64,000 nucleotides of DNA, taken from assembly GCF_900200035.1 (NCBI RefSeq), contig NZ_FZTC01000022.1, forward strand, positions 1-64,000, read 5' to 3'. Positions within the stretch are counted from its first letter, which is position 1. Each line of letters opens with the position of its first letter. Shown piece after piece: positions 7,958 through 58,175 of this stretch. Made by a program: the position numbers and the translations under genes. The notes beneath the pieces are model-generated. The model worked only from the letters and a program-made list of their open reading frames with translations, was not told the DNA's origin and made no database searches. This DNA comes from Klebsiella grimontii (GTDB lineage Bacteria; Pseudomonadota; Gammaproteobacteria; Enterobacterales; Enterobacteriaceae).

Positions 7958-9232
7958 TCAGGCTTCGGCCTGCTGAGGCGCGGCTTCAGCCTCCGGGACC
8001 TCTTCCTGCAGTTGACCTTCATTTTTTGACAGCATCGCCGTCGCAATCCCATTACCCAGCACGTTAATCGCTGAGCGCCCCATATCGAGGAAATGGTCAA
8101 TGCCCATCAGCAGCAAAATACCCGCCACCGGAATATTGAAGCTCGGGATGGTCGCGGCCAGCACCACCAGCGCCGAACGCGGTACCCCGGCAATCCCTTT
8201 CGAGGCCAGCATCAGCGTCAGCATCATCACGGTAATTTCGCTAAAGCTCAGCTGAACATTATAGGCCTGAGCGATGAACATGGCGGCAAAAGAGCAGTAC
8301 ACCATTGAGCCGACCAGGTTAAAGGAGTAGCCGATGGGCAGCACAAACGACGCGATATTTCGCGAACAGCCAAATTCCACCAGGCGCTCCAGGGTCTTCG
8401 GATAGGCCGCTTCGGAACTGCTGGTGGTGAACGCCACCAGCACCGGGTCTTTCAGCATATTCAGCAGGCGAAAAACCTCTTTTTTGAGCACCATATACCC
8501 CACCGCCAGCAGCACCGCGCTGGTCAGCAGGATCGCGACATAGTATCCGCCGATAAACGAGGCGTAGTTAAGCAGGATCCCCAGCCCCTGCGAGGCGATA
8601 ACCGAAGAGATAGCGGCGAAAATCGCCAGCGGCGCGACGTACATCACGTACCCGGTCACCTTCAGCATAATGTGGGAAACCACGTTGAGCGCCGCCACCA
8701 GCGGAGCATTGAATTTCTCCCCCAGCGACGCCCCGGCAATACCGAAGAACATCGAGAACACCACGATTTGCAGAATCTCGTTGCTGGCCATCGCTTCGGT
8801 AATGCTGGTCGGGATGGTATGGGTCAGAAAGCCTTTCAGGCTCATCCCGCTCACCGCCAGCCCGGTATCCACGGACTCTTTCGGGATCGCCAGGTTCAGA
8901 CCGGCGCCGGGATGCTCAAGGGTGACGATCACCAGCCCGACCAGAATGGAGAGAATTGACGAGGTAATAAACCACACCATGGCTTTACCGCCGACCCGGC
9001 CAATAGTCGCCGTTTCGCCAAGGCGCATAATGCCGACCGTCAGGGTACTGAAGACTAATGGCGCTATCACCATTTTAATCAGGCGCAGGAACACATCGGT
9101 TAGCAGCGTAATGTTTTCCGACCATGCGGTAATGGTCGTTTGCCCGGCGTAAGCGTGGATGGCCGCGCCGGAGAGGATCCCCAGCAGCATGAAGATGACG
9201 ATGAACAGCGTGAGTTTGTTTGCACTTGCCAC
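7958..9232 (-). CDS. Dicarboxylate/amino-acid:cation symporter (DAACS family)
   Basis: A 424-residue polytopic inner-membrane transporter of the DctA/GltP/GltT fold. Diagnostic segments are the serine-rich re-entrant loop (AFTTSSSEAAYPKTLE), the HP2/TM7 region (SYSFNLVGSMVYC) and the substrate-site helix (LLLMGIDHFLDMGRSAINVLGN). The family takes up C4-dicarboxylates, glutamate or aspartate by Na+ or H+ symport; substrate cannot be fixed from sequence. The C-terminus ends in an acidic Glu/Ala/Gln-rich tail. It is a monocistronic unit; its AT-rich promoter region is 9233-9420, shared with the terminator of the peptide-transport operon upstream. Confidence 0.88.
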   Translation of the reverse strand: MASANKLTLFIVIFMLLGILSGAAIHAYAGQTTITAWSENITLLTDVFLRLIKMVIAPLVFSTLTVGIMRLGETATIGRVGGKAMVWFITSSILSILVGLVIVTLEHPGAGLNLAIPKESVDTGLAVSGMSLKGFLTHTIPTSITEAMASNEILQIVVFSMFFGIAGASLGEKFNAPLVAALNVVSHIMLKVTGYVMYVAPLAIFAAISSVIASQGLGILLNYASFIGGYYVAILLTSAVLLAVGYMVLKKEVFRLLNMLKDPVLVAFTTSSSEAAYPKTLERLVEFGCSRNIASFVLPIGYSFNLVGSMVYCSFAAMFIAQAYNVQLSFSEITVMMLTLMLASKGIAGVPRSALVVLAATIPSFNIPVAGILLLMGIDHFLDMGRSAINVLGNGIATAMLSKNEGQLQEEVPEAEAAPQQAEA

Positions 9233-9423
9233 AAAAATTAACCCCTGATTTATTTAACGTGTTGTTTTTTAATGTATATATGCTTTATTTATTGGAATAC
9301 ATTAAACATTCACCACATAAATTGAATAAAAGCACGCGGGGTTACAACTCTTTTTTAGTTTTTATAGTAAAAGTTAATGTGCTCGTTGATATGCATCAAA
9401 CCGCGTCGCGCCGCCGGAAAGAT

Positions 9424-9457
9424 GAAAAAGGCGCCGGCGTCAGAGGACAACCGGCGC
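9424..9457 (-). terminator. Intrinsic terminator of the pip-peptide ABC operon
   Basis: On the minus strand GCGCCGG and CCGGCGC form a perfect 7-bp stem with a 13-base loop and are followed at once by CTTTTTC. It lies ten bases past the stop of the substrate-binding-protein gene, the last gene of the operon. Confidence 0.75.
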
Positions 9458-9466
9458 AAAGAGGCA

Positions 9467-10981
9467 CTAGCGTTTTACGGTATCCTCCAGGAAGAAACGT
9501 CCCAGCGGATTCTGATAAAAACCGTCGATATTTTTGCGGCTGACGTTGCGGTACGGGCTGTAATACAGATCGACCCAGTTCACGTCGGCCTTGGCCATTT
9601 TTTGCAGGTCGATATACATCTGCTCGCGCTTTTTACCGTCCATTTCGACGCGCGCGGCAGCCACCAGCGCTTTTACCTGCTCGTTATGATAGCGGGTCAT
9701 ATAGTTCATATTGGCATCGTGACCCAGCACGAAGGTGGTTTTCTGATCGGGGTCAAGAATATCGTTGGTCCAGTACATCACCGAAATATCGTACTCTCCG
9801 GCCACCAGCATATCCCAGCTCTGGCTCGGGTCGACTTTTTGCAAATTCACCGTCACCCCGGCTTTCGCCAGCTGCTGTTGCAGCAAAATGGCAATCTGCT
9901 CATCGACTTCATCCCCGGCGTTGACCACGTAGTTCAGCTTCAGATCGGCAGCGCCCGCCGCTATCAGCATCGCTTTGGCCTTCTGCGGATCGTACGGCCG
10001 GCGAAGATTATCCTGGTAGTGGTAAAGCGCCCCGGCGGGAATATAGGAGTTGGCCACCTGGCCGTAGCCAAAGGTCACGGTCTTCACGATTGCGTCTTTA
10101 TCAATCGCGAAGTCCAGCGCCTGGCGCACCTCCACCTTGCCCAGCGCGCCGTGAGAATGGTTGATCAGCAGATGGTCCTCGCGCGTGGAGGGGTCCAGTT
10201 CCACCTTCAGATTGGCATCCTTTTGTAACGATGCAATGCGCGAGAAAGGCACGGTCAGCGCGGCGTCGAGCTCGCCGGCCTGCACCTTCAGCATGCGGGT
10301 ATTATCGTCCGGAATGGTTAACCACTCCACGCCATCGAGGCTGACGTTTTTCGCCTGCCAGAAGTGCGGGTTCTTCACCAGCACGATCTTTTCCCCGCGC
10401 AGCCACTCTTTCACGCTAAACGCGCCGGAGCCCACGGGTTTTTCGGCAAACGCCTCTTCGCCTTCCGCTTTCATCGCCTTCTGCGAAATCACCGAGGCGT
10501 TCGGCAGGGCCAGCTGCGACAAGAACGGCGCTGACGGCGATTTCAGCGTCACTACCAGCGTGCGCGGGTCCGGGGCTTCCGCTTTGGCAATAATGCTATA
10601 GGAGTCGCGCCACAGCGAGCCTTCATCATCGCGGATACGCATCAAGCTAAACGCCGCATCGCTGGCGGTTAGCGGTGTGCCGTCAGAGAAGGTCGTGTCG
10701 CGAATTTTAAAAGTGTAGACCTTGCCATCCGGAGAAATCGTCCAGCTCTCAGCCACGCCCGGCTCCAGCTTCGTCCCGCTCTTATCCACCCGCACCAGCG
10801 GGTCAAAGACGTTGGAAAAGACCCAGTTATCCGCGTTTTGCGCCGATTTTATCGGGTCAAACGTGGTGCTGTCCTCCCGGCGGCCAATGGTCAATACCCC
10901 CGCCGCCTGGGCCATTTCGCTCACCACGCTAAGCGCCAGAAAAACGCTCGCCGCCAGTAATTTAACTTGCCTGTGCTTCAT
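9467..10981 (-). CDS. Peptide ABC transporter substrate-binding protein (DppA/OppA type)
   Basis: A 504-residue periplasmic binding protein with a Sec signal peptide ending near AQA-AGVLTIG and the family-5 extracellular solute-binding pattern (NVFDPLV, LEPGVAESWTISPDGKVYTFKIR, DGTPLTASDAAFS, GSGAFSVKEW, PYDPQKAKAML). It delivers peptides to the inner-membrane complex encoded upstream. The ATG at 10981 is preferred over the TTG at 10984 because GGGGGAT lies eight bases upstream. The start overlaps the end of the ATPase gene by 20 bases, so the binding protein is the last gene of the pip-B-C-D-F-A operon, an uncommon place for it. The exact peptide substrate is unknown; the linked iminopeptidases point to proline-containing peptides. 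Confidence 0.88.
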   Translation of the reverse strand: MKHRQVKLLAASVFLALSVVSEMAQAAGVLTIGRREDSTTFDPIKSAQNADNWVFSNVFDPLVRVDKSGTKLEPGVAESWTISPDGKVYTFKIRDTTFSDGTPLTASDAAFSLMRIRDDEGSLWRDSYSIIAKAEAPDPRTLVVTLKSPSAPFLSQLALPNASVISQKAMKAEGEEAFAEKPVGSGAFSVKEWLRGEKIVLVKNPHFWQAKNVSLDGVEWLTIPDDNTRMLKVQAGELDAALTVPFSRIASLQKDANLKVELDPSTREDHLLINHSHGALGKVEVRQALDFAIDKDAIVKTVTFGYGQVANSYIPAGALYHYQDNLRRPYDPQKAKAMLIAAGAADLKLNYVVNAGDEVDEQIAILLQQQLAKAGVTVNLQKVDPSQSWDMLVAGEYDISVMYWTNDILDPDQKTTFVLGHDANMNYMTRYHNEQVKALVAAARVEMDGKKREQMYIDLQKMAKADVNWVDLYYSPYRNVSRKNIDGFYQNPLGRFFLEDTVKR

Positions 10982-11996
10982 CAAAAGATCCCCCTGTTAA
11001 AGGAAAAACGGTCTCATCGCCCGCGAGGTTGAGCACGCAGGCATAAGCGCGATCGGCAATCTGCCGGGTTGGTGGTGGTGCGCCGGTGCGGCACTGCACC
11101 TGCGCATAAGGGCAGCGCGGATGAAATGCACAGCCTTGTGGAACGGCAACGGGACTGGGCGGCTCGCCCCCCAGCAAATTTTTCGGTAGGGGTTTATCCG
11201 GGTCGATTTCCGGGATCGCCGAGACCAGCGCGGCGGTATAGGGATGCAGCGGACGGGTGAAGACCGCCTCTGCCGGCCCCTCTTCCACAATCCGCCCAAG
11301 GTACATTACCGCCACCCGATCGCAGAGCCGCCGCACAATCGCCAGATCGTGAGCGATAAACAGAATCGCCAGCCCCATCTTCTCCCGCAGATCCATCAGC
11401 AGGTTGACGATCTGTCCCTGAATAGAGACGTCCAGCGCCGCGACGCACTCATCGGCCACGATCAGCCGCGGCTCCATGGCCAGCGCTCTGGCAATACCGA
11501 CGCGCTGGCACTGGCCGCCGCTAAGCTGGGCCGGTTTCGCGCTGGCCTGCTGCGGGCGCAGGCCCACCAGGGTGAGCAGTTCCGCTACCCGCAGCGCCTC
11601 CTGCCCGCGGGGCACTTTTTGATGCACGCGCAGCACCTCGGCGATGCTCTCTCCCACGCTCTGCCGCGGGTTCAACGAGGCAAAGGGATCCTGGAAAATC
11701 ATCGCGCTTTGCTGGCGCAGACGGGCGATATCGCTGGTTAAGCCATGGGTAATACGCTGCCCCTCGAACCGCACCTCGCCATCGGCTACCCGTTCAAGCT
11801 GTAACAACGCTCGGCCAAGCGTGCTCTTGCCGCTGCCGGATTCGCCGACCAGACCGAGCGTTTCGCCAGGAAAGATCTGCATCGTGACCTGGTTCACCGC
11901 GTGCACGACCCGCTTCGGCTGCCAAAGACCACCCGACACCGGGAAGGTGACGCAAAGATTATCGGCCTCAAGCAGCGGCCAGTGAGCGTTAGCCAT
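10962..11996 (-). CDS. Peptide ABC transporter ATP-binding protein (DppF/OppF type)
   Basis: A 344-residue ATPase with Walker [10 protein letters not shown], signature LSGGQ, Walker B LIVADE and H-loop FIAHD, followed by the oligopeptide-transporter C-terminal extension with the cysteines of the CAFHPRCPYAQVQC motif, which in this family binds an iron-sulfur cluster. The start at 11996 shares one base with the stop of the upstream ATPase gene (TAATG) and has GGAGGG just before it; a longer in-frame reading from 12038 has no such support. One oddity is ADECVAALD where most relatives have ADEPVSALD. Confidence 0.9.
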   Translation of the reverse strand: MANAHWPLLEADNLCVTFPVSGGLWQPKRVVHAVNQVTMQIFPGETLGLVGESGSGKSTLGRALLQLERVADGEVRFEGQRITHGLTSDIARLRQQSAMIFQDPFASLNPRQSVGESIAEVLRVHQKVPRGQEALRVAELLTLVGLRPQQASAKPAQLSGGQCQRVGIARALAMEPRLIVADECVAALDVSIQGQIVNLLMDLREKMGLAILFIAHDLAIVRRLCDRVAVMYLGRIVEEGPAEAVFTRPLHPYTAALVSAIPEIDPDKPLPKNLLGGEPPSPVAVPQGCAFHPRCPYAQVQCRTGAPPPTRQIADRAYACVLNLAGDETVFPLTGGSFDEAQAS

Positions 11997-12976
11997 TATC
12001 CCTCCTGTCGGGTCAGCGTGGGTAAGCGGTGATGACAAGCCACCGCGTGGCTATGGCGATCCTGCCCGTAATGCAGCGGCGGCGGCTGCAGGCACGCCTC
12101 ATCGGCGCGGCGGCAGCGCGGATGAAAGCGACAGCCTGATGGAAAGTGGTCGGCGCTCGGCGGCTGGCCGTCGATGATTGTCAGCCTCCCCCGTCCGCCT
12201 TCGCTGGCCGGCTGACAATCAATAAGCCCGCGGGTATAGGGGTGCAGCGGCCCGGCGAGCACTTCGCGTTTGTCGCCCACCTCGCAGAGCCTGCCGCCGT
12301 ACATCACCGCGATCCGGTCGCAGGTTTGCGCCACCACCCCGAGATCGTGGGTGATCATAATGACCGCCAGCCCCAGCTCGGCACGCAGGTCGCTGAGCAG
12401 GCGCAAAATCTGCATCTGCACGGTGACGTCCAGCGCGGTCGTCGGTTCGTCGGCAATCAGCAGCCGCGGTTCCGACGCGAGGGCGACGGCGATCATCGCC
12501 CGCTGGCGCATACCGCCGGAAAATTCGTGCGGATAGCTATTGAGCCGATTCTGCGGGTCCGGGATGCCGACCTGGCGCAGCAGGGCCAGCGCATCTTCCC
12601 GCGCCTGACGGCGGTTTGCCGCAAAATGGAGGCGCCGGCTTTCCGCGATCTGCTCCCCAATGGTCATCACCGGATTGAGATGGCTGGTCGGGTTCTGGAA
12701 AATCATACCGATTTCCCGCCCGCGCACCGCCGACATTTGCCCTTCGCTGAGGGGTAAGATATCCCGGCCGTCGAGCACAACCTCACCGCCGCTAATCCGC
12801 AGTCCGTCCCCCGGCAGCAGGCGCATCAGCGCCCGGCAGGTCACGGTTTTTCCCGACCCGCTTTCGCCAACCAGCCCCAGCATCTCCCCGGCTTCAAGCG
12901 TGAATGAGACGTTATCGACCAGCGCGATATCCTCGCCGCCCGTGACCGCCAGGCGATTCACCTTCAGCAAACTCAT
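11996..12976 (-). CDS. Peptide ABC transporter ATP-binding protein (DppD/OppD type)
   Basis: The second ATPase of the importer, 326 residues, with Walker [11 protein letters not shown]-loop IFQNP, signature FSGGMRQR, Walker [13 protein letters not shown] and the C-terminal extension [15 protein letters not shown]. Together with the DppF-type partner it energises uptake through the two permeases. Its ATG overlaps the stop of the DppC-type gene (ATGA), and its own stop overlaps the next start, indicating translational coupling. Confidence 0.92.
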
Positions 12977-13818
12977 CCCCGTCCTCCTAACTTGTCACCG
13001 AGCCCATCGGCCAGCAGGCTAAAGCCCATCGCCAGCAGCACGATGGCGAGCCCTGGAAAGGTGGTTATCCACCACGCGGTAGTGATAAAGCTCTGCCCTT
13101 CGGCCACCATAACGCCCCATTCGGCGGTTGGCGGCTGCACGCCGAGCCCGAGATAGCTCACCGCGGCTCCGTTCAGCAGCACCAGTACGCAGTCGGACAT
13201 CGAAAAAACGATCGCTCCGGTTAGCGCGTTCGGCAGCAGATGGCGGAACAAAATCCGCAGATGGCCGTAGCCCAGACTGCGGGCCGCCAGAATAAAATCG
13301 CGCTGTTTCAGCGTCAGTACCTGAGCGCGTACCAGCCGGGCGTAGGAGACCCAGCCCACCATCGCCATGGCGATGTAAAAGCTGCTCAGTCCCGGCCCGA
13401 GAATGGCGATGATTGCCAGCATCAGCACCAGAAACGGAAAGGCCAGCACGATATCAATAACCCGCATCACCAGCGCATCGACCACGCCGCCAGAATAGCC
13501 GGCAAGCGCCCCCAGCGCGGTACCGAGCATAAAGGGGAACAGCACCCCCAGCAGGCAGATTTGGAGATCGACCCGCGCGCCCCACAGCACGCGGGAAAAA
13601 ACGTCGCGGCCAAAGTTGTCGGTACCGAAGAGATGCGCGCCGCCCGGCGGCAGCAGGCTGGAAGAGGCGTCCTGGGCAATCGGATCGAACGGCGCGATCC
13701 ACGGCGCCAGACAGGCGACCAGCAGCCATAGTCCGACGATCGCCAGCCCGGCGTAGAGCGCCTGCTGACGCGGGATAGCCCGCTGACGCAGACGGGAAAA
13801 CGTCGCTATCGCCTTCAT
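12973..13818 (-). CDS. Peptide ABC transporter permease (DppC/OppC type)
   Basis: A 281-residue inner-membrane permease with an N-terminal OppC-type cytoplasmic segment and first helix (GLAIVGLWLLVACLAPW), the HLFGTDNFGRDVFSRVLWGAR motif region shared by DppC-like proteins and the EAA-type cytoplasmic loop (AARSLGYGHLRILFRHLLPN) that contacts the ATPases. Start and stop both overlap neighbours by four bases (ATGA), so it is co-translated with the DppB-type permease. Confidence 0.92.
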   Translation of the reverse strand: MKAIATFSRLRQRAIPRQQALYAGLAIVGLWLLVACLAPWIAPFDPIAQDASSSLLPPGGAHLFGTDNFGRDVFSRVLWGARVDLQICLLGVLFPFMLGTALGALAGYSGGVVDALVMRVIDIVLAFPFLVLMLAIIAILGPGLSSFYIAMAMVGWVSYARLVRAQVLTLKQRDFILAARSLGYGHLRILFRHLLPNALTGAIVFSMSDCVLVLLNGAAVSYLGLGVQPPTAEWGVMVAEGQSFITTAWWITTFPGLAIVLLAMGFSLLADGLGDKLGGRG

Positions 13819-14753
13819 AGTTTTATCCTCGGGTCGAGGGCCACGGTCAGAATATCCGCCAGCAGGCTGACCGCTACGGTAGCAAGGGCAAAGACCATCA
13901 CCACGCCCTGCACCACCATGTAGTCGCGGCTAAAAATCGCCTTAACCAACAGCTGTCCGAGGCCGGGGATGGCAAACACGCTTTCGATAACCACCGTACT
14001 GCCGATGAACCAGCCAATATTCACCGCCAGCAGATTGATGGTCGGCACCAGAGAATTCGGCAGCACGTGCCGCCAGAAGATACGTCTTTCCTGCTGTCCC
14101 CGCGCCCGGGCCGCCACCACATAGTCGCTATTCATCTCCATCAGCAGGCTGGCGCGCAGGTTGCGAATCAATACCGCCGACAGCGCCAGCGCCACGGTCA
14201 GGCACGGCAGAACCATATGGTGCAGCTGGTCTACAAAATCGCTGCCGTAGCCGGAGACCGGAAACCAGCCGAGCACGATACTGAACAGCAGAATCAACAT
14301 GATGCCGAGCCAGAACGCCGGAAACCCGAGCCCGGCGGTCGTAAACAGACGAATCAGCCGATCGGCGAGGCGCCCGCGCTGGCGTGCGGCCATCGCCGCC
14401 AGCGGTACCGTCAACGCTATCGCCAGCAGAACGCTGCCGAGCACCAGCCACAGCGTCGGTTCCAGACGCGAAGCAATCAGCTTCAGGGTATCGACCCGGT
14501 AAACAATTGACTTACCCAGCTCGCCCTGCAGCAGATTGCGCAGAAAATAGCCGTACTGAACCCACAGCGGTTCGTCGAGGCCAAACTGCGCGCGGATGCG
14601 GGCCAGCGCCGCCGGCGTGCTGCGCACCCCGAGCAGAATACGCGCCGGATCGCCGGGGATGGCGCGCACCATCATGAAGGTGATCAGGCTGATACCCAGC
14701 AGAACCGGCAGCAGCTGTAGCGGGCGAAGAAGCAGAAAGCGGTAACGGTGCAT
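13815..14753 (-). CDS. Peptide ABC transporter permease (DppB/OppB type)
   Basis: A 312-residue permease with the family N-terminus (LLPVLLGISLITFMMVRAIPGDP), about six membrane helices and the EAA loop (ARARGQQERRIFWRHVLPNSLVPT). The ATG at 14753 forms TGATG with the stop of the upstream iminopeptidase and has GGGAGG at six bases; the TTG one codon earlier is not needed. The overlap means the iminopeptidase is the first gene of the transport operon, linking cytosolic peptide cleavage to import. Confidence 0.92.
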   Translation of the reverse strand: MHRYRFLLLRPLQLLPVLLGISLITFMMVRAIPGDPARILLGVRSTPAALARIRAQFGLDEPLWVQYGYFLRNLLQGELGKSIVYRVDTLKLIASRLEPTLWLVLGSVLLAIALTVPLAAMAARQRGRLADRLIRLFTTAGLGFPAFWLGIMLILLFSIVLGWFPVSGYGSDFVDQLHHMVLPCLTVALALSAVLIRNLRASLLMEMNSDYVVAARARGQQERRIFWRHVLPNSLVPTINLLAVNIGWFIGSTVVIESVFAIPGLGQLLVKAIFSRDYMVVQGVVMVFALATVAVSLLADILTVALDPRIKL

Positions 14754-15652
14754 CAACAGCCTCCCGCGTCGCGCTGGCGCGCCAGAAAATCGAGCAGCAC
14801 CGGGTAGTAAGCCTGCGGCTCTTCGTAAAATGGCATATGGCTGCTGTTGGCAAAAATGGCTATTTCGGCGTTCGCCAGGCCCTGCTTCATTTTCAGGGCG
14901 CAGGCGGGCGTCAGCTCATCGTGCTGGCCGCTGGTGATCAGACAGGGCGCGCGGATTGACGCCAGCTCAGCGCTGCGGTTCCAGTTTTTTAAATTGCCGG
15001 TATAGAGGAATTCGTTCGGCCCCTGCATGGTGGTATACGGCCCCATATTCCAGTCGCCGAGCGAGCGGGTAACCGGCTCCGGCCAGACGTCGAGACGGCA
15101 CACGTGGCGATAATTCAGCAGAGTAATCGCCGCCTGATAGGCCGGATGATCCAACCAGCCGAGCGCTTCGTAGCGCTGCATCATCGCGACGGTTTCTGGC
15201 CCCAGCGCCCCGCGCAGACGGTTCAGCTCCTGCACCAGATGCGGCATATCGGCGACGGTGTTTTCCAGAATCAGCGAGCGAATTGCGCCAGGATGGTGCA
15301 ACGCCACTTCAATCGCCAGCCATCCGCCCCATGAGTGACCAAGCAGATGCACCTGACCGAGCCCCAGCGCCTGACGCACGGTCTCCACTTCACGCACGTA
15401 GCGTGCCATCGTCCACAGGCTGGCATCATCCGGCCGGTCGGACTTGCCGGTACCCAGCTGGTCAAAAGCGATCACCCGATAACCGTGCTGCTTCAGGCAG
15501 GAGTGGGCTTCGCGCAGATAATCGCAGGGCAGCCCCGGCCCGCCGTTGAGGCAGAGAACGGTCTCCTCGCCGTCGCCAAACTGATAGGCCACGACGTTAT
15601 ATCCCTCCACCGCAATGTTATGGTACTGATCGGGCGCTATTTCGCTCCACAT
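14753..15652 (-). CDS. Proline iminopeptidase-type alpha/beta hydrolase, first gene of the peptide-uptake operon
   Basis: A 299-residue cytoplasmic serine hydrolase of peptidase family S33, which removes N-terminal proline from peptides. The oxyanion-loop motif is NGGPG (residues 36-40, usually HGGPG), the nucleophile elbow GHSWGGW places Ser107, and the acid and base are likely in SGQHDELTPA and SSHMPFYEEP. The ATG at 15652 is chosen for its GAGGAGT site; the frame extends upstream without a usable start signal. A lux-box-like element (15725-15744) lies about 80 bases upstream, and the divergent gene encodes a LuxR-solo regulator. It shares family and context, though not close identity, with the second iminopeptidase at 16691-17623. 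Family members can act on other amides or esters, so exact substrate is inferred. Confidence 0.88.
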   Translation of the reverse strand: MWSEIAPDQYHNIAVEGYNVVAYQFGDGEETVLCLNGGPGLPCDYLREAHSCLKQHGYRVIAFDQLGTGKSDRPDDASLWTMARYVREVETVRQALGLGQVHLLGHSWGGWLAIEVALHHPGAIRSLILENTVADMPHLVQELNRLRGALGPETVAMMQRYEALGWLDHPAYQAAITLLNYRHVCRLDVWPEPVTRSLGDWNMGPYTTMQGPNEFLYTGNLKNWNRSAELASIRAPCLITSGQHDELTPACALKMKQGLANAEIAIFANSSHMPFYEEPQAYYPVLLDFLARQRDAGGC

Positions 15653-15724
15653 GGTGTACTCCTCATCGTCGATGGCCCGGTTCTGGCGTTGCGTTAACGC
15701 TAACGGCAACGCCGGAGGCTGAAC

Positions 15725-15744
15725 AGTTAGCAAAAATACTAGTT
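15725..15744 (-). promoter_or_regulatory. lux-box-like element upstream of the iminopeptidase/ABC operon
   Basis: On the minus strand the 20 bases begin AACTAGTATTTTTGCTAAC. They match the element at 16608-16627 at all but a few positions and form an imperfect inverted repeat (CTAGT ... GCTAA). The centre lies about 82 bases before the start codon of the operon. Position and similarity suggest a binding site of the LuxR-type regulator encoded between the two elements; this is inference. Confidence 0.65.
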
Positions 15745-15853
15745 TTGCGCGGCGCCGGTGCGGCACCGGAATTGCATGCCTTTTGCGCTAACTATTGACG
15801 GATTTGCACAAATCGTGCCCGTCGCAGGTCTCGTTTTAGATGAAGGGGGTTAT

Positions 15854-16606
15854 ATGCGACTGGAATTTGAACGCCCCGGCAGCGCGCGGGCGGCTAGCCT
15901 GGATGAGGCATTCAGCGGACTTTTTCAGGCCACCCGGAAGTTAGGATTTGACGCGGTCATTTACGACTACACGCCGGTCCCGCGTTCTCTGGAAGGGGAG
16001 CTGATTACGCCTTCGCTGCTGAAAACGTGCAATGTGCCGGAAGATATGCGCCAGCTATGGTGCGAGCGCGGATATTACCAGCTTGATCCGGTGCAGCACT
16101 GCGCGCTCGAAAGCTGCGCGCCTTTTGTCTGGTCCTATCAACGACCGGACAACAGCATGCTGCGCGGGAGGCTGAACAATCACGCCACCGCGGTCACCGA
16201 CTATATGCGCGAACATAATATGCCCTGCGGGGCGACGGTTCCCCTGCATCTCCCCAACGGCAGTTTCGTCACTCTCACCGGCATCCATACCGGCCAGCGT
16301 CAGGAACGGGAAATCAGCGCCACCCTGGCGCAGCTGATGCTGCTCGCCCACCAGTTTCAGGAGTCGGCGTTTCCGCTGTTTGACAGCACCCTGCTTACCT
16401 GCCGCCATGTGAAGCTAAGCAACCGCGAGCGCGAATGCCTGGCGTGGTCCGCCGAAGGACTTACCGCTAAAGAGATCGCCCGCAAGCTGCACCGCTCGGT
16501 GGCGACGGTGACGCTGCATCTTAATACCGCGGCCAAAAAGCTCGGCGCCAGCAACCGCGTACAGGCGGTAGTCCGCGCCCTGCACTACCGCCTGCTCGAC
16601 AGCTAA
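15854..16606 (+). CDS. LuxR-solo regulator of the plant-responsive (OryR/XccR/PsoR/PipR) type
   Basis: A 250-residue protein with an N-terminal autoinducer-binding domain (about 15-165) and a C-terminal LuxR HTH (about 185-248). Aligned by eye to TraR, the pocket residues Asp70, Pro71, Trp85 and Gly113 correspond to Asp78, Pro79, Trp93 and Gly126. TraR Trp57 and Tyr61 are replaced by Met65 and Trp69, the two changes that define LuxR solos answering plant-derived compounds instead of acyl-homoserine lactones. The DNA-binding residues Glu192, Leu196 and Gly202 are intact. The ATG at 15854 follows AAGGGGG by four bases; the upstream in-frame extension lacks a ribosome-binding site. No luxI gene is present. 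Flanking iminopeptidase genes and a peptide ABC operon are the arrangement reported for the PipR locus of a Populus-associated Pseudomonas. Confidence 0.88.
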   Translation: MRLEFERPGSARAASLDEAFSGLFQATRKLGFDAVIYDYTPVPRSLEGELITPSLLKTCNVPEDMRQLWCERGYYQLDPVQHCALESCAPFVWSYQRPDNSMLRGRLNNHATAVTDYMREHNMPCGATVPLHLPNGSFVTLTGIHTGQRQEREISATLAQLMLLAHQFQESAFPLFDSTLLTCRHVKLSNRERECLAWSAEGLTAKEIARKLHRSVATVTLHLNTAAKKLGASNRVQAVVRALHYRLLDS

Positions 16607-16607
16607 G

Positions 16608-16627
16608 AACTAGCATTTTTGCTAGTG
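16608..16627 (+). promoter_or_regulatory. lux-box-like element upstream of the second iminopeptidase
   Basis: Starting two bases after the regulator stop codon, this element contains the perfect inverted repeat ACTAGCA-N4-TGCTAGT. Its centre is about 73 bases before the ATG of the iminopeptidase gene. Its near-copy stands at a similar distance before the other iminopeptidase on the opposite strand, so both are likely operators or activator sites of the LuxR-type protein between them. Confidence 0.72.
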
Positions 16628-16690
16628 TTCAGCCGCGGTTGCCACCCTTTACCCTGAAAGCCGGTCCACTTAGCAGGGTAAAGATGATTC

Positions 16691-17623
16691 ATGTATACCA
16701 TCAGCGAAGGTTACGCCCCGTTTCGGCGCTATCAAACCTGGTTTCGCGTTTGCGGCGATATCGATAGCGGGCTCACGCCGCTGGTCATCGCCCACGGCGG
16801 GCCGGGGTGCACGCATGATTATGTTGATGCGTTCCGCGATATCGCCCTCAGCGGGCGGGCGGTGATCCACTACGATCAGTTAGGCAACGGACGCTCAACC
16901 CATCTCCCGCAGCAGCCCGCCGATTTCTGGCAACCGGCGCTGTTCCTCGACGAACTGGCCAACCTGCTGCAGCATCTCAATATTGCCGATCATTACGCCC
17001 TGCTCGGCCAATCGTGGGGAGGTATGCTCGGCGCGGAGCACGCCGTGACGCGGCCAAAGGGGTTAAAGGCGCTGATTATCGCCAACTCCCCGGCGTCGAT
17101 GGCGCTGTGGCTACAGGGAGCGGCCAGGCTGCGGGCGCAGTTGCCCGCCGACGTCCAGCAGACGCTGCTGGCCCATGAGGCGGCGGGAACGCTGGACAGC
17201 GCGGAATATAAGGCGGCAAGCCAGGTATTTTATCAACGCCACGTCTGTCGCCTCGATCCCTGGCCGGCGGAAGTGCGGCGCACCTTCGACGCCATGGATG
17301 CCGACCCGACGGTTTATCACGCCATGAATGGCCCCACCGAATTCCACGTCATCGGCAGCATGAAAGCGTGGACGATTATCGACCGCCTCGCGCGCATTGA
17401 CGTTCCGGTCCTGCTGATTTCCGGGCGCTACGATGAAGCCACCCCGGAGGTGGTACAACCCTTTATGGACCACATCCCCGACGCGCGGTGGGTCATTTTC
17501 GAAGCCTCAAGCCATATGCCGCACGTCGAAGAGCGCGAGCTGTGCATGAAGACGGTAAACGACTTTTTAAGCCGCGCGATAAACGAAAAGCCGCTTACAG
17601 CGCCAGCCCGCCTCCGCCGCTGA
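16691..17623 (+). CDS. Proline iminopeptidase-type alpha/beta hydrolase, second copy
   Basis: A 310-residue S33-family hydrolase with the classical oxyanion motif HGGPG (residues 35-39), nucleophile Ser108 in GQSWGGM, probable acid in [10 protein letters not shown] and base in SSHMPHVEE. It shares sequence blocks with the copy at 14753-15652 (for example [12 protein letters not shown] against NYRHVCRLDVWP), so the two are paralogues that have diverged considerably. It is a single-gene unit downstream of its own lux-box-like element. The last 29 bases overlap the end of the convergent hydrolase gene on the other strand. Confidence 0.88.
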
Positions 17624-18713
17624 ACGGCCGCTCGCCGGCGATTTTCATTACTTCGGCCCCCAGGGTGACAAACGGCGCCCGACGGCTGGCATAAATCAGC
17701 CCGCCCGATGTCGGGCGCACCGCTTTGACCATATCGGTCAGCGGATCGATGATTTCCGCGACCACATCGTCGGCGCTGACCCACTCGCCGGGCTGTTTTA
17801 ACAGCACCAGGATGCCGGTCGCCGGGGCGGTAACAATCTCCCCGGCGGCAAACGGCAGCATTACCGTTTCCTGCTGCGGAATCTCAGGCTTCGCGCCGGC
17901 CAGTACGCCGCGGTACTGCAGATAGCGATAAAGACGTTCGGCATCGTCGCAGGCGGTGGCGTGATCCACCTCCTGCTGGCCGCGCAGTTCGACGGTCACC
18001 GCCATACAGCCGGGCTGCTGCTGCGAGCGCGATGAATCACGCGCCGCCAGGCGCTGCCACGGCAGGCCGCAGGCCTCATCAAACGAATGACCGCCGCTCT
18101 CCTGCGACAGCAGCACGGCGCCAATACCGAGGAAAGCCGCCAGAACTTTCGCCTCGCGTTGCCAGGCCGGGTCGGCGTAGAGATGCAAAATCGCCTGGTC
18201 ATCGCAGTGCAGATCGAGTACCAAATCGGCATCGCAGGCGAGGCCCAGCAGATGATGGCGCAGGGCCTGAACTTCGCTGACCACGGGCAGCGCCGCCAGC
18301 GCCTCCCGCATCGCCGCGCGCACCTGCTGCAGGTACTCGCGGCGCGAACCGGGCGATGGCGCACGCAGATAGGGCTGCGCCAGGGCAGCCAGATCGGGGA
18401 AATCGCGGTTAAAATTACGCCCGCTTGCCAGATCGAAACGACCTATGCCGCCGCTGAGCAGCACCTGGGCCAGCCCCGGCGGGTTGGCCACCGGCACGAG
18501 AATGATTTCGCCGCGCAGCTCGCCGCGCCGTTCCGCCTGACTGAGTAATCTTTTAAGATAATGCAGAACCAGCATGCCCGGAATTTCATCGGCGTGCAGC
18601 CCCGCCTGCAGATAGACCTTCTCTCCTGTGCCGGGCGCGCCGAAATGAAAATGGCTTAATTGCCGCTGCCCACCGAGTGCATGTTCAGGTAATGTATAGT
18701 GTTTAATTTTCAT
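17595..18713 (-). CDS. Succinylglutamate desuccinylase/aspartoacylase-family (M14-like) hydrolase
   Basis: A 372-residue zinc hydrolase. The metal site is recognisable from GLHADEIPG (His40, Glu43) and DLHCDDQ, and GRNFNRDFP is the substrate-carboxylate region typical of the family. The C-terminal third (about 275-372) is a beta-barrel-like AstE/AspA extension. Relatives remove acyl groups from acylated amino acids such as N-acetylaspartate or N-succinylglutamate, or cleave amide bonds of modified amino acids. It is divergent from the Lrp/AsnC-type regulator, whose reading frame begins within its start region, and precedes a basic-amino-acid transport cluster, so an acylated amino acid related to arginine is a reasonable but unproven substrate. 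Confidence 0.78.
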
Positions 18714-18727
18714 TGGACGTCCTGGTT

Positions 18728-19183
18728 GTGGAAAAGAAAATCCGGCTTGACCGTATCGATCACAAGATCCTTGAAATCCTGCGCCGGGATGGCCGCATTT
18801 CTTATCAAAAGCTCTCGGAGCAGGTAAACCTTACCGCCCGTCCGTGCCTGGAACGGGTGCGCAGCCTCGAGCGCGACGGCATTATTCGCGGCTACAGCGC
18901 CATTGTAGAACTGCCCGAGCCGGAGCACGCGTTTGTGGTGCAGGCGCAAATCGCGCTGGCCGACCACGGGCGATCGCAGCCGGTGTTTGAACAGGAGATG
19001 CGCCAGACGCCCGAAGTGCTGGACTGCTGGCTGGTCAGCGGCAGCTTCGACTTTCTGGTGCGTATCGGCTGCCGCAGCATGGCGCACTACTGCCAGCTGG
19101 CGGATAGCTGGCTGACCAGTAAAAAGTTTCACGTCGATAAAATCGTCACCCTCACCGAACTGCAGGCCATTAAGCGCTCTTGA
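18728..19183 (+). CDS. Lrp/AsnC-family transcriptional regulator
   Basis: About 151 residues: an N-terminal winged helix (DRIDHKILEILRRDGRISYQKLSEQVNLT) and a C-terminal RAM ligand-binding domain (FVVQAQIAL ... VLDCWLVSGSFDFLVRI). Such proteins sense amino acids and usually control adjacent transport or catabolic genes. The start is uncertain. A GTG at 18728 with GGAC upstream fits family length; a TTG at 18713 would overlap the divergent hydrolase start. The neighbouring hydrolase and amino-acid uptake genes are its likely targets. Confidence 0.85.
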   Translation: MEKKIRLDRIDHKILEILRRDGRISYQKLSEQVNLTARPCLERVRSLERDGIIRGYSAIVELPEPEHAFVVQAQIALADHGRSQPVFEQEMRQTPEVLDCWLVSGSFDFLVRIGCRSMAHYCQLADSWLTSKKFHVDKIVTLTELQAIKRS

Positions 19184-19909
19184 CTAGCCGCGACGGATAA
19201 ACGCCAGCCAGCGCCGCTCGGCGCGCGCGAAGGTGAAAATCAGCAAAAAGGTGCAGAGCAGATACAGCGCCGCGGCCATCAGAAACGGAATAAACGGCGA
19301 ATAGGTCATGGCGTAGAACGCGCGGGCCACGCCGGTAATATCCAGCAGGGTCACGGTGCTGGCCAGCGACGTGGCGTGCAGCAAAAAGACCATTTCATTA
19401 TTCAGCGCCGGGATCCCGCGCCTCAGGGTCGCGGGCAGAACCAGACGGCGAATAATTTGCCATTTCCCCATCCCGTAGGCTTCTCCGGCGATCCACTCCT
19501 GGCGCGGGAAAGTCACCATCATCCCCGCCAGCAGCTCCGCAACGTACGCGGCAGTGTTGAGAACCAGCGCCAGGGTGGCGCAGAAGGTCGCATCGCGAAA
19601 CAGCAGCCAGAACGGCTGGTCGTTCATCCAGCCCGTTTGTACGATATCGAACTGCGACAGGCCGTAGTAAATCAGCATCAGTTGGAGATAGAGCGGCGTG
19701 CTGCGAAAAAAATATGTAAACGCGCGAATGGGCAGCGCCAGCCCGCGCGGACCGTACACCTGCCCCACCGCCATCGCTATCGCCAGCGCCATTCCGGGAA
19801 CGATGGAGAGTAAAAACAGCTCCGCCGTGACCGCCAGTCCGCTGGCGGCGCCGTTGCCGTCGCTCCACAAAAAGCTCGGAATCGCATCGATAAAGGTTTG
19901 CAGATTCAT
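19184..19909 (-). CDS. Polar amino-acid ABC transporter permease (HisM/ArtM type)
   Basis: A 241-residue inner-membrane permease of the His/Glu/Gln/Arg class, with the conserved TYFFRSTPLYLQLMLIYYG segment and the EAA loop (GEAYGMGKWQIIRRLVLPATLRRGIPAL). It pairs with the permease upstream; the genes overlap as ATGA. It ends immediately next to the stop of the Lrp/AsnC gene, which is convergent with it. Confidence 0.9.
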   Translation of the reverse strand: MNLQTFIDAIPSFLWSDGNGAASGLAVTAELFLLSIVPGMALAIAMAVGQVYGPRGLALPIRAFTYFFRSTPLYLQLMLIYYGLSQFDIVQTGWMNDQPFWLLFRDATFCATLALVLNTAAYVAELLAGMMVTFPRQEWIAGEAYGMGKWQIIRRLVLPATLRRGIPALNNEMVFLLHATSLASTVTLLDITGVARAFYAMTYSPFIPFLMAAALYLLCTFLLIFTFARAERRWLAFIRRG

Positions 19910-20598
19910 AAGGCCGCCCCCGCCGTGGAAGAGCGCAGCGCGTAACGCTTCGCCAGGCGGCTGAACAGCCAGCTGGAGAGCGCGGTAATCACCATGTAAA
20001 TCAGCGAGACCAGAAAATAGAAGAGGAACGGCTTTTGCGTGGCGCGCCCAGCCTGTTCGGCCAGCCAGACCATATCCTCAAGGCCGAGGATCGACACCAG
20101 CGCTGACGCTTTCATCAGCCCCAGCCAGTTGTTGTTGATGCCCGGGATCGCGAAGCTCAGCATCTGCGGCAGCATCACCCGGCGGAATACCGTCCAGGGT
20201 CGCATCCCGTAGGCCTGCGCGGCTTCGGTTTGCCCGCTATCGACGGTCAGAAACGCGCCGCGAAAAGTCTCGGTGTAATAGGCGCCGAAAACAAAGCCAA
20301 TCGCCAGCACGCCGGAGATAAAAGTATTGAAGCGCACCGGCCCCAGCCCCACCAGACCCAGCAGCAGGTTAACCAGCATCTCGCCGCCGAAAAACAGCAG
20401 CAGCATAATCACCAACTCCGGGATCCCGCGTACCAGCGTAGTGTAGGCGGTGGAAAACAGGCGCAGCCACGGCGGGCCGAAGAGCTTAATCAGCGAGTTA
20501 ATCAGCCCCAGCAGCAGAGCGACCAGTAATGAAGAGAGCATCACGCACAGCGAAAGCGCCGCGCCGCGTAACAACAGGGGTAAATAGTCTGCGACCAT
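19906..20598 (-). CDS. Polar amino-acid ABC transporter permease (HisQ/ArtQ type)
   Basis: A 230-residue permease, partner of the HisM-type protein. It shows the TTLVRGIPELVIMLLLFFGG motif and the EAA loop (AAQAYGMRPWTVFRRVMLPQMLSFAIPG). The two permeases would form the heterodimeric channel for the binding protein encoded upstream at 20663-21436. No ATP-binding subunit gene is found in this cluster. Confidence 0.9.
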   Translation of the reverse strand: MVADYLPLLLRGAALSLCVMLSSLLVALLLGLINSLIKLFGPPWLRLFSTAYTTLVRGIPELVIMLLLFFGGEMLVNLLLGLVGLGPVRFNTFISGVLAIGFVFGAYYTETFRGAFLTVDSGQTEAAQAYGMRPWTVFRRVMLPQMLSFAIPGINNNWLGLMKASALVSILGLEDMVWLAEQAGRATQKPFLFYFLVSLIYMVITALSSWLFSRLAKRYALRSSTAGAAL

Positions 20599-20662
20599 AT
20601 TCAGCCTTCCGCGGAGGTCGTAAAGGGGCGCAGGCCAGCGCCCACGCCCGCACCTTTACGAC

Positions 20663-21436
20663 TTATTTGCCATAAATATCAAAGCTAAAGTATTTTTTCT
20701 GAATGGCGTCATAGGTCCCGTCGGCGCGGATTGCCTTAATGGCCCCGTTCAGCGCATCGCGCAGCGCCGGATTGTCTTTATTGACCGCAATCCCGACGTC
20801 GGAGGAGATGCCGCCGTCCTGGATAACCGGGCCGGCAAAGGCGAATTTCTGCCCGCGTGGGGTATCAATAAAGCCGGTCGCCGCCTGGATATTATCCTGC
20901 AACGCGGCGTCGATGCGCCCGGAGAGCAGGTCGAGGTAGACGTTATCCTGGTTAGCGTAACCGACAATCTTCACGCCATGATTGGCCCAGTTGGCCTTCG
21001 CAAACGCTTCATGGGTAGAGCCGGTCTGAACGCCGACGGTTTTGCCTTTCAGGCTGGCGGCATCCGGCAGCAGCGGGCTGCCTTTGCGCGCCACCAGCTG
21101 CGCCGCGCTGCGGTAGTAGCGGTCGGTGAAATCCACTTCCTTTTTACGTTCATCGGTAATATTGAGCGAGGCTATAATGGCATCGAACTTATGCGCGTTG
21201 AGGGCGGCGATCATGCTCTCAAACGGCTGCTTCACGAAAACGCATTTGGCTTTTAGCTGGGTGCACAGCGCGTTGGCGATATCAATATCAAAGCCGGTGA
21301 TTTCGCCGCTGGGCGCCAGCACGTCAAAAGGCGGATAGCCGCCATCGACGCCAAAGCTGATGGTGTCAAACTGCTGGGCGGCCAGCGGCGCGCTCAGCGC
21401 CATACAGGCCAGTAATGCGGCAAGGCGTATTTTCAT
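20663..21436 (-). CDS. Basic amino-acid ABC transporter substrate-binding protein (ArgT/HisJ-like)
   Basis: A 257-residue family-3 periplasmic binding protein with a Sec signal peptide (cleavage near PLAA-QQFD) and conserved blocks GVDGGYPPFDVLAPSGEITGFD, IIASLNITDERKKEVDFT and TVGVQTGSTHEAF. The pattern is closest to lysine/arginine/ornithine-binding proteins. It sits between the permease genes and the dimethylargininase-like gene, suggesting arginine or a methylated arginine as ligand. Confidence 0.88.
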   Translation of the reverse strand: MKIRLAALLACMALSAPLAAQQFDTISFGVDGGYPPFDVLAPSGEITGFDIDIANALCTQLKAKCVFVKQPFESMIAALNAHKFDAIIASLNITDERKKEVDFTDRYYRSAAQLVARKGSPLLPDAASLKGKTVGVQTGSTHEAFAKANWANHGVKIVGYANQDNVYLDLLSGRIDAALQDNIQAATGFIDTPRGQKFAFAGPVIQDGGISSDVGIAVNKDNPALRDALNGAIKAIRADGTYDAIQKKYFSFDIYGK

Positions 21437-35453: not shown

Positions 35454-35460
35454 CCATTTC

Positions 35461-35547
35461 GCTGAAAAACATAACCCATAAATGCTAGCTGTACCAGGAA
35501 CCACCTCCTTAGCCTGCGTAATCTCCCTTACGCGGGCTTATTTTTTT
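35461..35547 (+). ncRNA. cyaR: CyaR (RyeE) Hfq-dependent small RNA
   Basis: The sequence begins GCTGAAAAACATAACCCATA, continues with the conserved single-stranded seed around CCAGGAACCACCTCCTTAG and ends in a GC stem (GCCTGCG ... CGCGGGC) with a run of seven T, an Hfq-type terminator. It is almost identical to remembered E. coli CyaR, with one fewer A before TGCTAGC and compensating C/G changes in the terminator stem. CyaR represses ompX, nadE, luxS and others by pairing near ribosome-binding sites. Its place just after yegQ is conserved. Confidence 0.95.
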
Positions 35548-57812: not shown

Positions 57813-57861
57813 CGTTTGCTCCCGCCAGGCGATGAAGAAGCGACGACCCTGCGGTCTCTGA

Positions 57862-57937
57862 CTTCCCTACGCTGGCATTATCCAGATCAGGTGGTACGGG
57901 TTTTTCTCAGCCTTCACAAAGAAGGGCACCCCGAGTC
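57862..57937 (-). promoter_or_regulatory. TPP (thi-box) riboswitch of thiMD
   Basis: On the minus strand the leader begins GACTCGGGGTGCCC, then has GGCTGAGAAA, ACCCGTACCACCTGATCTGG and ATAATGCCAGCGTAGGGAAG, the universally conserved elements of the thiamine-pyrophosphate aptamer. The following 45 bases to the ATG, with GGGAGCAAACG, resemble the E. coli thiM expression platform that hides the ribosome-binding site when TPP is bound. Confidence 0.97.
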
Positions 57938-58175
57938 ATTGAGAGATAAAAACGTTCTCAGCGGGCAGGTTACGGTAAGTCGCGGGACAACGCAAGCTGG
58001 CCTGGCGCGGTTAGAGGAGCGCACGCCGATCTGGATTTAACAATAAGCAATCAAATAATTAACAAAATAAACACTTTTTCAGATACGTGTTTATAGTTTA
58101 GAAGGCGTTACAGGATGTAACCCGGCGTCATATCGAAATTAACGAGTGAATCAGCGTAAACCCATGAGGATTCCG

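Follow-up and report, generated by a model that had tools for sequence, protein, structure and literature searches.

A LuxR solo of the OryR/PipR class with two flanking peptidase genes and a peptide transporter operon in Klebsiella grimontii

A stretch of 64,000 nucleotides from contig NZ_FZTC01000022.1 of Klebsiella grimontii (hereafter, the window) contains an approximately 8-kb locus, at positions 9467-17623, in which a LuxR solo is flanked by two divergent peptidase genes of the TIGR01250 family, pip1 and pip2, and in which pip1 heads an operon for a peptide ATP-binding cassette (ABC) transporter. We consider it very probable that this is a LuxR-solo locus of the type found in plant-associated bacteria (PAB), which imports a peptide-like plant compound, senses it through the LuxR solo, and degrades it through the two peptidases. 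For the Klebsiella locus, the genes, their orthology, the regulatory repeats, the class of the receptor pocket, and the conserved gene order are direct observations.

The proposed mechanism would begin with a peptide-like, probably plant-derived small molecule that is caught by an AapF-like periplasmic solute-binding protein (SBP) and carried into the cell by the B-C-D-F transporter. Once in the cytoplasm, the molecule would bind the LuxR solo, and the ligand-bound regulator would act at two lux-box-like repeats, raising expression of pip2 and of the pip1-transporter operon. The two peptidases would then degrade the signal, forming a negative feedback loop. Import dependence, activation, and signal degradation are what we infer from the genetics of Pseudomonas sp. 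GM79, in which an aapB mutant is unresponsive, PipR is required, and peptidase mutants respond more (PMC4981722; this report, PMC10134790, PMC4338825, PMC11064500, the AlphaFold 3 paper, and the review discussed below are cited from excerpts). The initial annotation of this DNA, made from the sequence alone, had suggested that import, processing, and sensing are wired together in one locus; this holds in the excerpted account of GM79 and, for Klebsiella, by inference only.

All eight genes are present and open according to our reading of the open reading frames (ORFs) and domain scans. On the minus strand, pip1 (14753-15652) leads a chain-overlapping pip-B-C-D-F-A operon composed of permease B, the AapB counterpart by position (13815-14756; PF00528 and PF19300), permease C (12973-13818; PF00528 and PF12911), a DppD/OppD-type ATPase D (11996-12976) and a DppF/OppF-type ATPase F (10962-12038), each with PF00005 and PF08352, and the SBP, the AapF counterpart (9467-10984; PF00496). 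On the plus strand, luxR (15854-16606) is followed after a gap of 84 nt by pip2 (16691-17623). With the listed starts, consecutive genes from pip1 to the SBP overlap by 4, 4, 4, 43, and 23 nt; by eye, ATG 11996 is a likelier start for ATPase F and ATG 10981 for the SBP, and with these the last two overlaps fall to about 1 and 20 nt. Also by eye, the likely start of luxR is ATG 15854 (250 aa) over GTG 15758 of the ORF list, and that of pip1 is ATG 15652 (299 aa) over GTG 15766. ORFs, domains, and overlaps thus confirm the arrangement that the initial annotation described, a LuxR solo between two pip genes with one of them heading an overlapping pip-B-C-D-F-A operon.

The search for this gene order across genera that had been proposed with that annotation found it in Pseudomonas, Rhizobium, Neorhizobium, and enterobacteria, with pip1 or the transporter missing in some. 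Because the same order occurs in other genera and in another class, we conclude that the arrangement is not due to chance. Peptide patterns of LuxR retrieved 29 named loci; pip2 lies beside luxR in all 29, the transporter is present in 25, and pip1 in 10. One Trabulsiella locus in this set is truncated upstream, and one Pseudomonas locus near a contig end is without an SBP. The full eight-gene order is found in each of the 15 Pseudomonas stretches taken, out of 32 matches.

The regulator itself scores above the cut-off for both PF03472 (Autoind_bind) and PF00196 (GerE, the LuxR helix-turn-helix). These domains, together with a best NCBIfam match to SdiA at 54.4 bits, are what might be expected of an SdiA-kind receptor for N-acyl-homoserine lactones (AHLs) that happens to lie near peptidase genes, yet this explanation is scarcely credible. 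The score is far under the SdiA cut-off of 350, the genome's one other Autoind_bind match is the true SdiA at 459.6 bits, and the LuxR solo is 22.1% identical to that protein. Furthermore, Tyr63, Trp67, and Tyr71 of SdiA align to Val61, Met65, and Trp69 of the LuxR solo, and a tree separates 52 locus-type LuxR rows from 8 other LuxR proteins, including the genome's own SdiA, at 100/100; the program flags long outgroup branches in this tree, and the named OryR, XccR, and PipR sequences lie outside it. An SdiA-like AHL receptor, which the initial annotation had named as the finding that would count against its own assignment, is rejected by score, pocket residues, and tree split.

The same residues place the regulator among the PAB solos. 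Met and Trp changes in the ligand pocket are marks of the plant-responsive LuxR class in the excerpts of PMC10134790 and PMC4338825; these changes are equivalent to W57M and Y61W in TraR numbering, and Gln at position 81 is a further mark (PMC7301841). In the LuxR solo of the window, M65 and W69 align to W67 and Y71 of SdiA, position 81 is Gln, and pip1 and pip2 flank the gene, an adjacent pip being another feature of the class. Across the 52 rows, position 69 is always Trp and position 81 always Gln, and position 65 is split between Met (30) and Trp (22); among the 50 rows that we tabled by group, position 65 is Trp in 21/21 Pseudomonas and Met in 29/29 enterobacterial-type and rhizobial proteins. 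The assignment to the PAB (OryR/PipR-class, "class D") solos of KoyR/PsrR/PipR/OryR type, with the Klebsiella version published as koyR, is well supported at the sequence level, and gene order in other genera, pocket residues, and the tree all bear out the PipR-type identity originally proposed.

Further support comes from two 18-nt near-palindromes that resemble lux boxes. The repeat on the pip2 side, ACTAGCATTTTTGCTAGT (16609-16626, plus strand), is centred 73.5 nt upstream of the pip2 ATG, and that on the pip1 side, ACTAGTATTTTTGCTAAC (15726-15743, minus strand), 82.5 nt upstream of the pip1 ATG. They are the sole matches in the window at ≤3 mismatches, against an expectation of 0.10, and two or more matches arose in 1 of 100 shuffles. 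We compared the boxes with 51 other loci (L040 and L116 being one record), with a shuffle control on the pip2 side only. In the 27 enterobacterial-type loci, which include a record titled Martelella alba that groups with enterobacteria in the LuxR tree, the pip2 box agrees at 16-18 of its 18 letters in 25, with Rahnella and Brenneria at 13; it lies approximately 67-73 nt before the assigned start and exceeds the shuffle maximum in every case. For the pip1-side box, which lies outside the shuffle control, 23 enterobacterial-type loci with pip1 or permease B could be compared, and 22 of them agree at 14-15 of the 18 letters. In five Pseudomonas loci with AapF-like SBPs (94.6-95.4% identical to AapF), the boxes lie at approximately 68-73 and 92-93 nt, near the spacings of 71.5 and 91.5 nt given for GM79 in the excerpted report (PMC4981722). 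Kosakonia loci without pip1 keep a box upstream of permease B, at approximately 143-149 nt, a sign that transporter control may be the feature retained.

A wider regulon in the window's own genome is not supported. Throughout the 6.17 Mb searched, the box pattern at ≤3 mismatches occurs at 15 sites, fewer than the 53 for a reversed control pattern. Only the two locus boxes have 0 mismatches, which is so by construction because the pattern was written from them, and two other sites have 2; by eye, the ORFs at these next-best sites (a long unassigned ORF at one, membrane-type and nucleotidyltransferase-like ORFs at the other) pointed to nothing.

The two peptidases are clearly members of one family and just as clearly distinct from one another. 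Both pass the TIGR01250 cut-off of 167.65 bits, with 268.5 bits for pip1 and 261 for pip2. The Ser, Asp, His, and two Glu sites of pip1 are invariant in 32/32 rows, and in pip2 the Ser, Asp, and two Glu sites are kept in 52/52 rows and the His in 51/52, with one gap; the functional reading of these sites rests on the Thermoplasma enzyme. The initial annotation had described duplicated, divergent iminopeptidases in an enterobacterial version of the locus. Divergent they are, at 36.3% identity, but in a tree of 57 of the 84 rows pip1 and pip2 form two clades that each contain Pseudomonas, rhizobia, and enterobacteria, and we therefore reject a recent enterobacterial duplication. By their sequences, the two are old paralogues. 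In GM79, the operon-heading AapA prefers alanine and PipA takes both proline and alanine, according to the excerpts of PMC4981722. Position and clade make pip1 the likely counterpart of AapA, an alanine aminopeptidase, and pip2, a TIGR01250-family proline iminopeptidase by clade and conserved residues, the likely counterpart of PipA; the AapA and PipA sequences stand outside the comparison.

Which ligand the locus responds to is a separate question. The initial annotation had pointed to the PipR system of a Populus-associated Pseudomonas and its ethanolamine-derived signal, HEHEAA, and there are grounds for supposing that the Klebsiella locus is an HEHEAA-sensing system exactly as in GM79, with the same ligand for SBP and receptor. 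The best solved relative of the SBP is AapF (7KZ8/7KZ9, 1e-233; the next is at 9.5e-52), with 70.4% identity, and we regard the fold as settled because of this match; 7KZ9 is AapF bound to HEHEAA, as stated in a figure legend of the AlphaFold 3 paper. The gene order is that of Pseudomonas, and of 49 SBP rows, 46 have the Asp of the YWTND motif and 3 have a gap at this position.

Nonetheless, we consider such an exact equivalence decidedly improbable. Of the two features of the HEHEAA-responsive subtype, an AapF-like SBP is found but a Trp/Trp receptor pocket is not (M65/W69). The receptor shares V61, M65, R66, C70, and M118 with Kosakonia; the corresponding residues of the five AapF-type Pseudomonas are T, W, H, C, and L. 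Position 57 is Lys in the window and Glu in Kosakonia. In the SBP alignment, 63 columns distinguish AapF from all five P. syringae-group proteins; the window sides with P. syringae in 36 of these and with AapF in 10, matching neither in the other 17, although these columns were picked by difference, irrespective of ligand contact, and much of the divergence is phylogeny. In our reading, the column pattern lowers the chances of HEHEAA, which nonetheless keeps some probability. The review, as excerpted, states that HEHEAA is not bound by a closely related protein from "another bacterial species". A protein of P. syringae DC3000 is reportedly described in the 2021 structure paper of Luo et al. 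as not binding HEHEAA. Because the receptor resembles PsrR of Kosakonia, which gave no response to HEHEAA (PMC7301841), HEHEAA is doubtful as the ligand, and this part of the original proposal is unsupported; the ligand is probably a different one. The class literature that we examined, in excerpts, names HEHEAA and Ser-His-Ser for PipR and lists saponarin and 2-benzoxazolinone for PsoR (PMC10134790, PMC4981722), and names no ligand for the enterobacterial branch.

A different view of the locus is that it is an ordinary peptide-scavenging operon, whose regulator answers peptides as nutrients and not as a plant cue. GM79 PipR answers peptone and Ser-His-Ser as well as leaf macerate (PMC4981722), and Klebsiella variicola BM374-1, in which the locus is plasmid-borne, is recorded from human faeces. 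However, the subgroup-0 solos of a 2023 survey all come from plant or terrestrial sources in the part excerpted (PMC10134790), and the peptidase mutants of GM79 raise the response instead of lowering it, which fits removal of a signal (PMC4981722). On balance, we consider scavenging unlikely.

Sensing of a plant compound is nevertheless a reading that some of our own evidence weighs against. In Kosakonia, no PsrR-dependent pip activity was observed with rice root macerate, ethanolamine, or HEHEAA (PMC7301841). The authors noted that the assay may have failed under their conditions (PMC7301841), but because PsrR is the nearest tested relative and was inactive on pip, activation by this receptor lineage is conjectural. 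The plant origin of the signal is likewise assumed from the class. When scored against the enterobacterial sequence, the pip2 box does not exceed the shuffle maximum in 2/2 rhizobial and 14/22 Pseudomonas loci. Finally, although the genome has no match to PF00765 (luxI), control genomes were equally silent, leaving that search without a working control; no luxI was found among the neighbouring ORFs scanned against Pfam.

The locus type is already known, including for Klebsiella, and its enterobacterial version is not new (PMC7301841, PMC11064500, PMC4338825). The excerpted 2024 account of koyR in Klebsiella michiganensis LDS17 describes pip genes on both sides, lux-box-like repeats before both, and an ABC cluster, and calls the locus "highly similar" to pipR (PMC11064500). 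As in the window, KoyR is a LuxR solo between two pips with a one-sided ABC cluster, both boxes, and a Met/Trp pocket; LDS17 is a different strain, to which we liken the window by its published description. An alignment of the locus and its surroundings with K. michiganensis DSM 25444, 16.8 kb long, gives 94.8% DNA identity, a value that suggests the same species or a near sister. A Klebsiella sp. and a Rahnella sp. had been listed by flanking genes in the XccR/OryR group as early as 2015 (PMC4338825, in excerpt). In the excerpted published accounts, we met no mention of peptidase orthology, of an empty site, or of plasmid copies, but our literature search was not aimed there and we claim no priority.

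Other relatives differ from the window in instructive ways. Six Kosakonia loci of the PsrR type have LuxR proteins 79.2-82.0% identical to that of the window and the same transporter, pip2, and boxes, but no pip1 was seen in them; Kosakonia sp. KO348, known to us by description, shows a defect in root-endosphere colonisation when psrR is mutated (PMC7301841). The PipR-AapA-F locus of GM79 has the same eight genes by its excerpted description, with box spacings close to those of the window (PMC4981722), but its PipR pocket is Trp/Trp (PMC7301841) where the window has Met/Trp. As a stand-in for GM79 PipR, we used the five Pseudomonas with AapF-like SBPs, whose LuxR proteins are 48.4-50.0% identical to the window's. 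OryR, XccR, and XagR of Xanthomonas belong to the same LuxR class and have an adjacent pip, according to reviews seen in excerpt (PMC10134790, PMC4338825); oryR homologues in Xanthomonas have no linked ABC transporter according to PMC4981722, yet the tables of those reviews list a peptide transporter. NesR-type loci on plasmids of Rhizobium WSM4643 and Neorhizobium NCHU2750 (L023, L024) have the same gene order and both pips, with LuxR proteins 46.8-48.8% identical to the window's over the alignment, S. meliloti NesR lying outside the comparison; unlike in the window, a single gene of approximately 1.7 kb is annotated for both ATPases.

The distribution of the regulator is patchy. Close LuxR relatives, defined by an E value of at most 1e-40, occur in 8 of 20 genomes of the genus and 31 of 392 of the family, the window's own included in each count (in the family, one has internal stops and one covers half the protein), and in 31 of 149 Pseudomonas genomes; absences in the family and in Pseudomonas are less sure because the scoring took in only some of the candidates from each genome. 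In Escherichia coli, 20,395 records contained no near (megablast) match to the 8-kb locus. One record inside the enterobacterial clade (NZ_SZPQ01000030.1, L035), with a LuxR 80% identical to Klebsiella's, is titled Martelella alba and is thus named as an alphaproteobacterium; it may be mislabelled. Trabulsiella guamensis has two luxR-pip2 copies on different contigs (L043, L044), with orthologous transporter and pip1 missing nearby.

Possible empty sites are found within the genus. Of the 12 genomes without the cassette, 8 have a match to the dicarboxylate symporter that flanks the locus and 4 have none. In four of the eight (L139, L140, L141, L146), the symporter and an AspA-like gene are adjacent, in place of the arrangement at 9232-17623 of the window, and the symporter stretch of the other four (L142-L145) has no AspA gene. 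This adjacency reads as if the cassette were absent from between the two genes. Among loci that carry the cassette, the window's neighbours are kept on both sides in L025, L028, and L115, on the symporter side only in L026, L027, and L114, and on neither side in L040/L116 or in the K. variicola plasmid locus L021.

In K. variicola, complete cassettes with approximately 87% DNA identity reside on plasmids of strains KV1 (NZ_CP103421.1, L021) and BM374-1 (NZ_CP063918.1, L148). The KV1 plasmid, associated with banana sheath rot, is typed as conjugative and IncFIB and has transposase genes on both sides of the cassette; that of the faecal strain BM374-1 is not typed as mobilizable. The Rahnella and rhizobial copies examined also sit on large plasmids.

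The genes next to the cassette appear to have their own affairs. The last 29 nt of pip2 are shared with a convergent AspA/AstE-like deacylase gene (17595-18713, minus strand), and at 18713-21436 an Lrp-type regulator, divergent from the AspA-like gene, lies beside an amino-acid-type ABC transporter. The Lrp/amino-acid ABC stretch also occurs in 4 genomes of the genus that lack the pip cassette and is therefore a separate unit. We rejected the symporter and the AspA/Lrp/amino-acid ABC genes as parts of the system, since symporter and AspA adjoin in 4 of the 8 cassette-free genomes examined. Elsewhere, the window contains a CyaR small RNA (35459-35543, plus strand) and a thiamine pyrophosphate (TPP) riboswitch (57847-57943, minus strand).

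This analysis is of value mainly because it cleanly confirms a system already in print and corrects two points, the ligand and where the two peptidases come from. More tentatively, at somewhat less than an even chance, the Klebsiella-Kosakonia branch may represent a co-diverged mobile cassette tuned to a ligand other than HEHEAA, in which pocket, SBP, and lux box have shifted together and which moves as an intact eight-gene unit between chromosome and plasmids, one of them conjugative. Combining a receptor, a dedicated importer, and two enzymes that may remove the signal on one transferable cassette, the locus would be a handy module for ligand finding. It connects plant signals with a genus known chiefly for opportunistic infections of humans, and if the cassette is indeed mobile, a single event may suffice for a strain to acquire or lose its perception of such signals.

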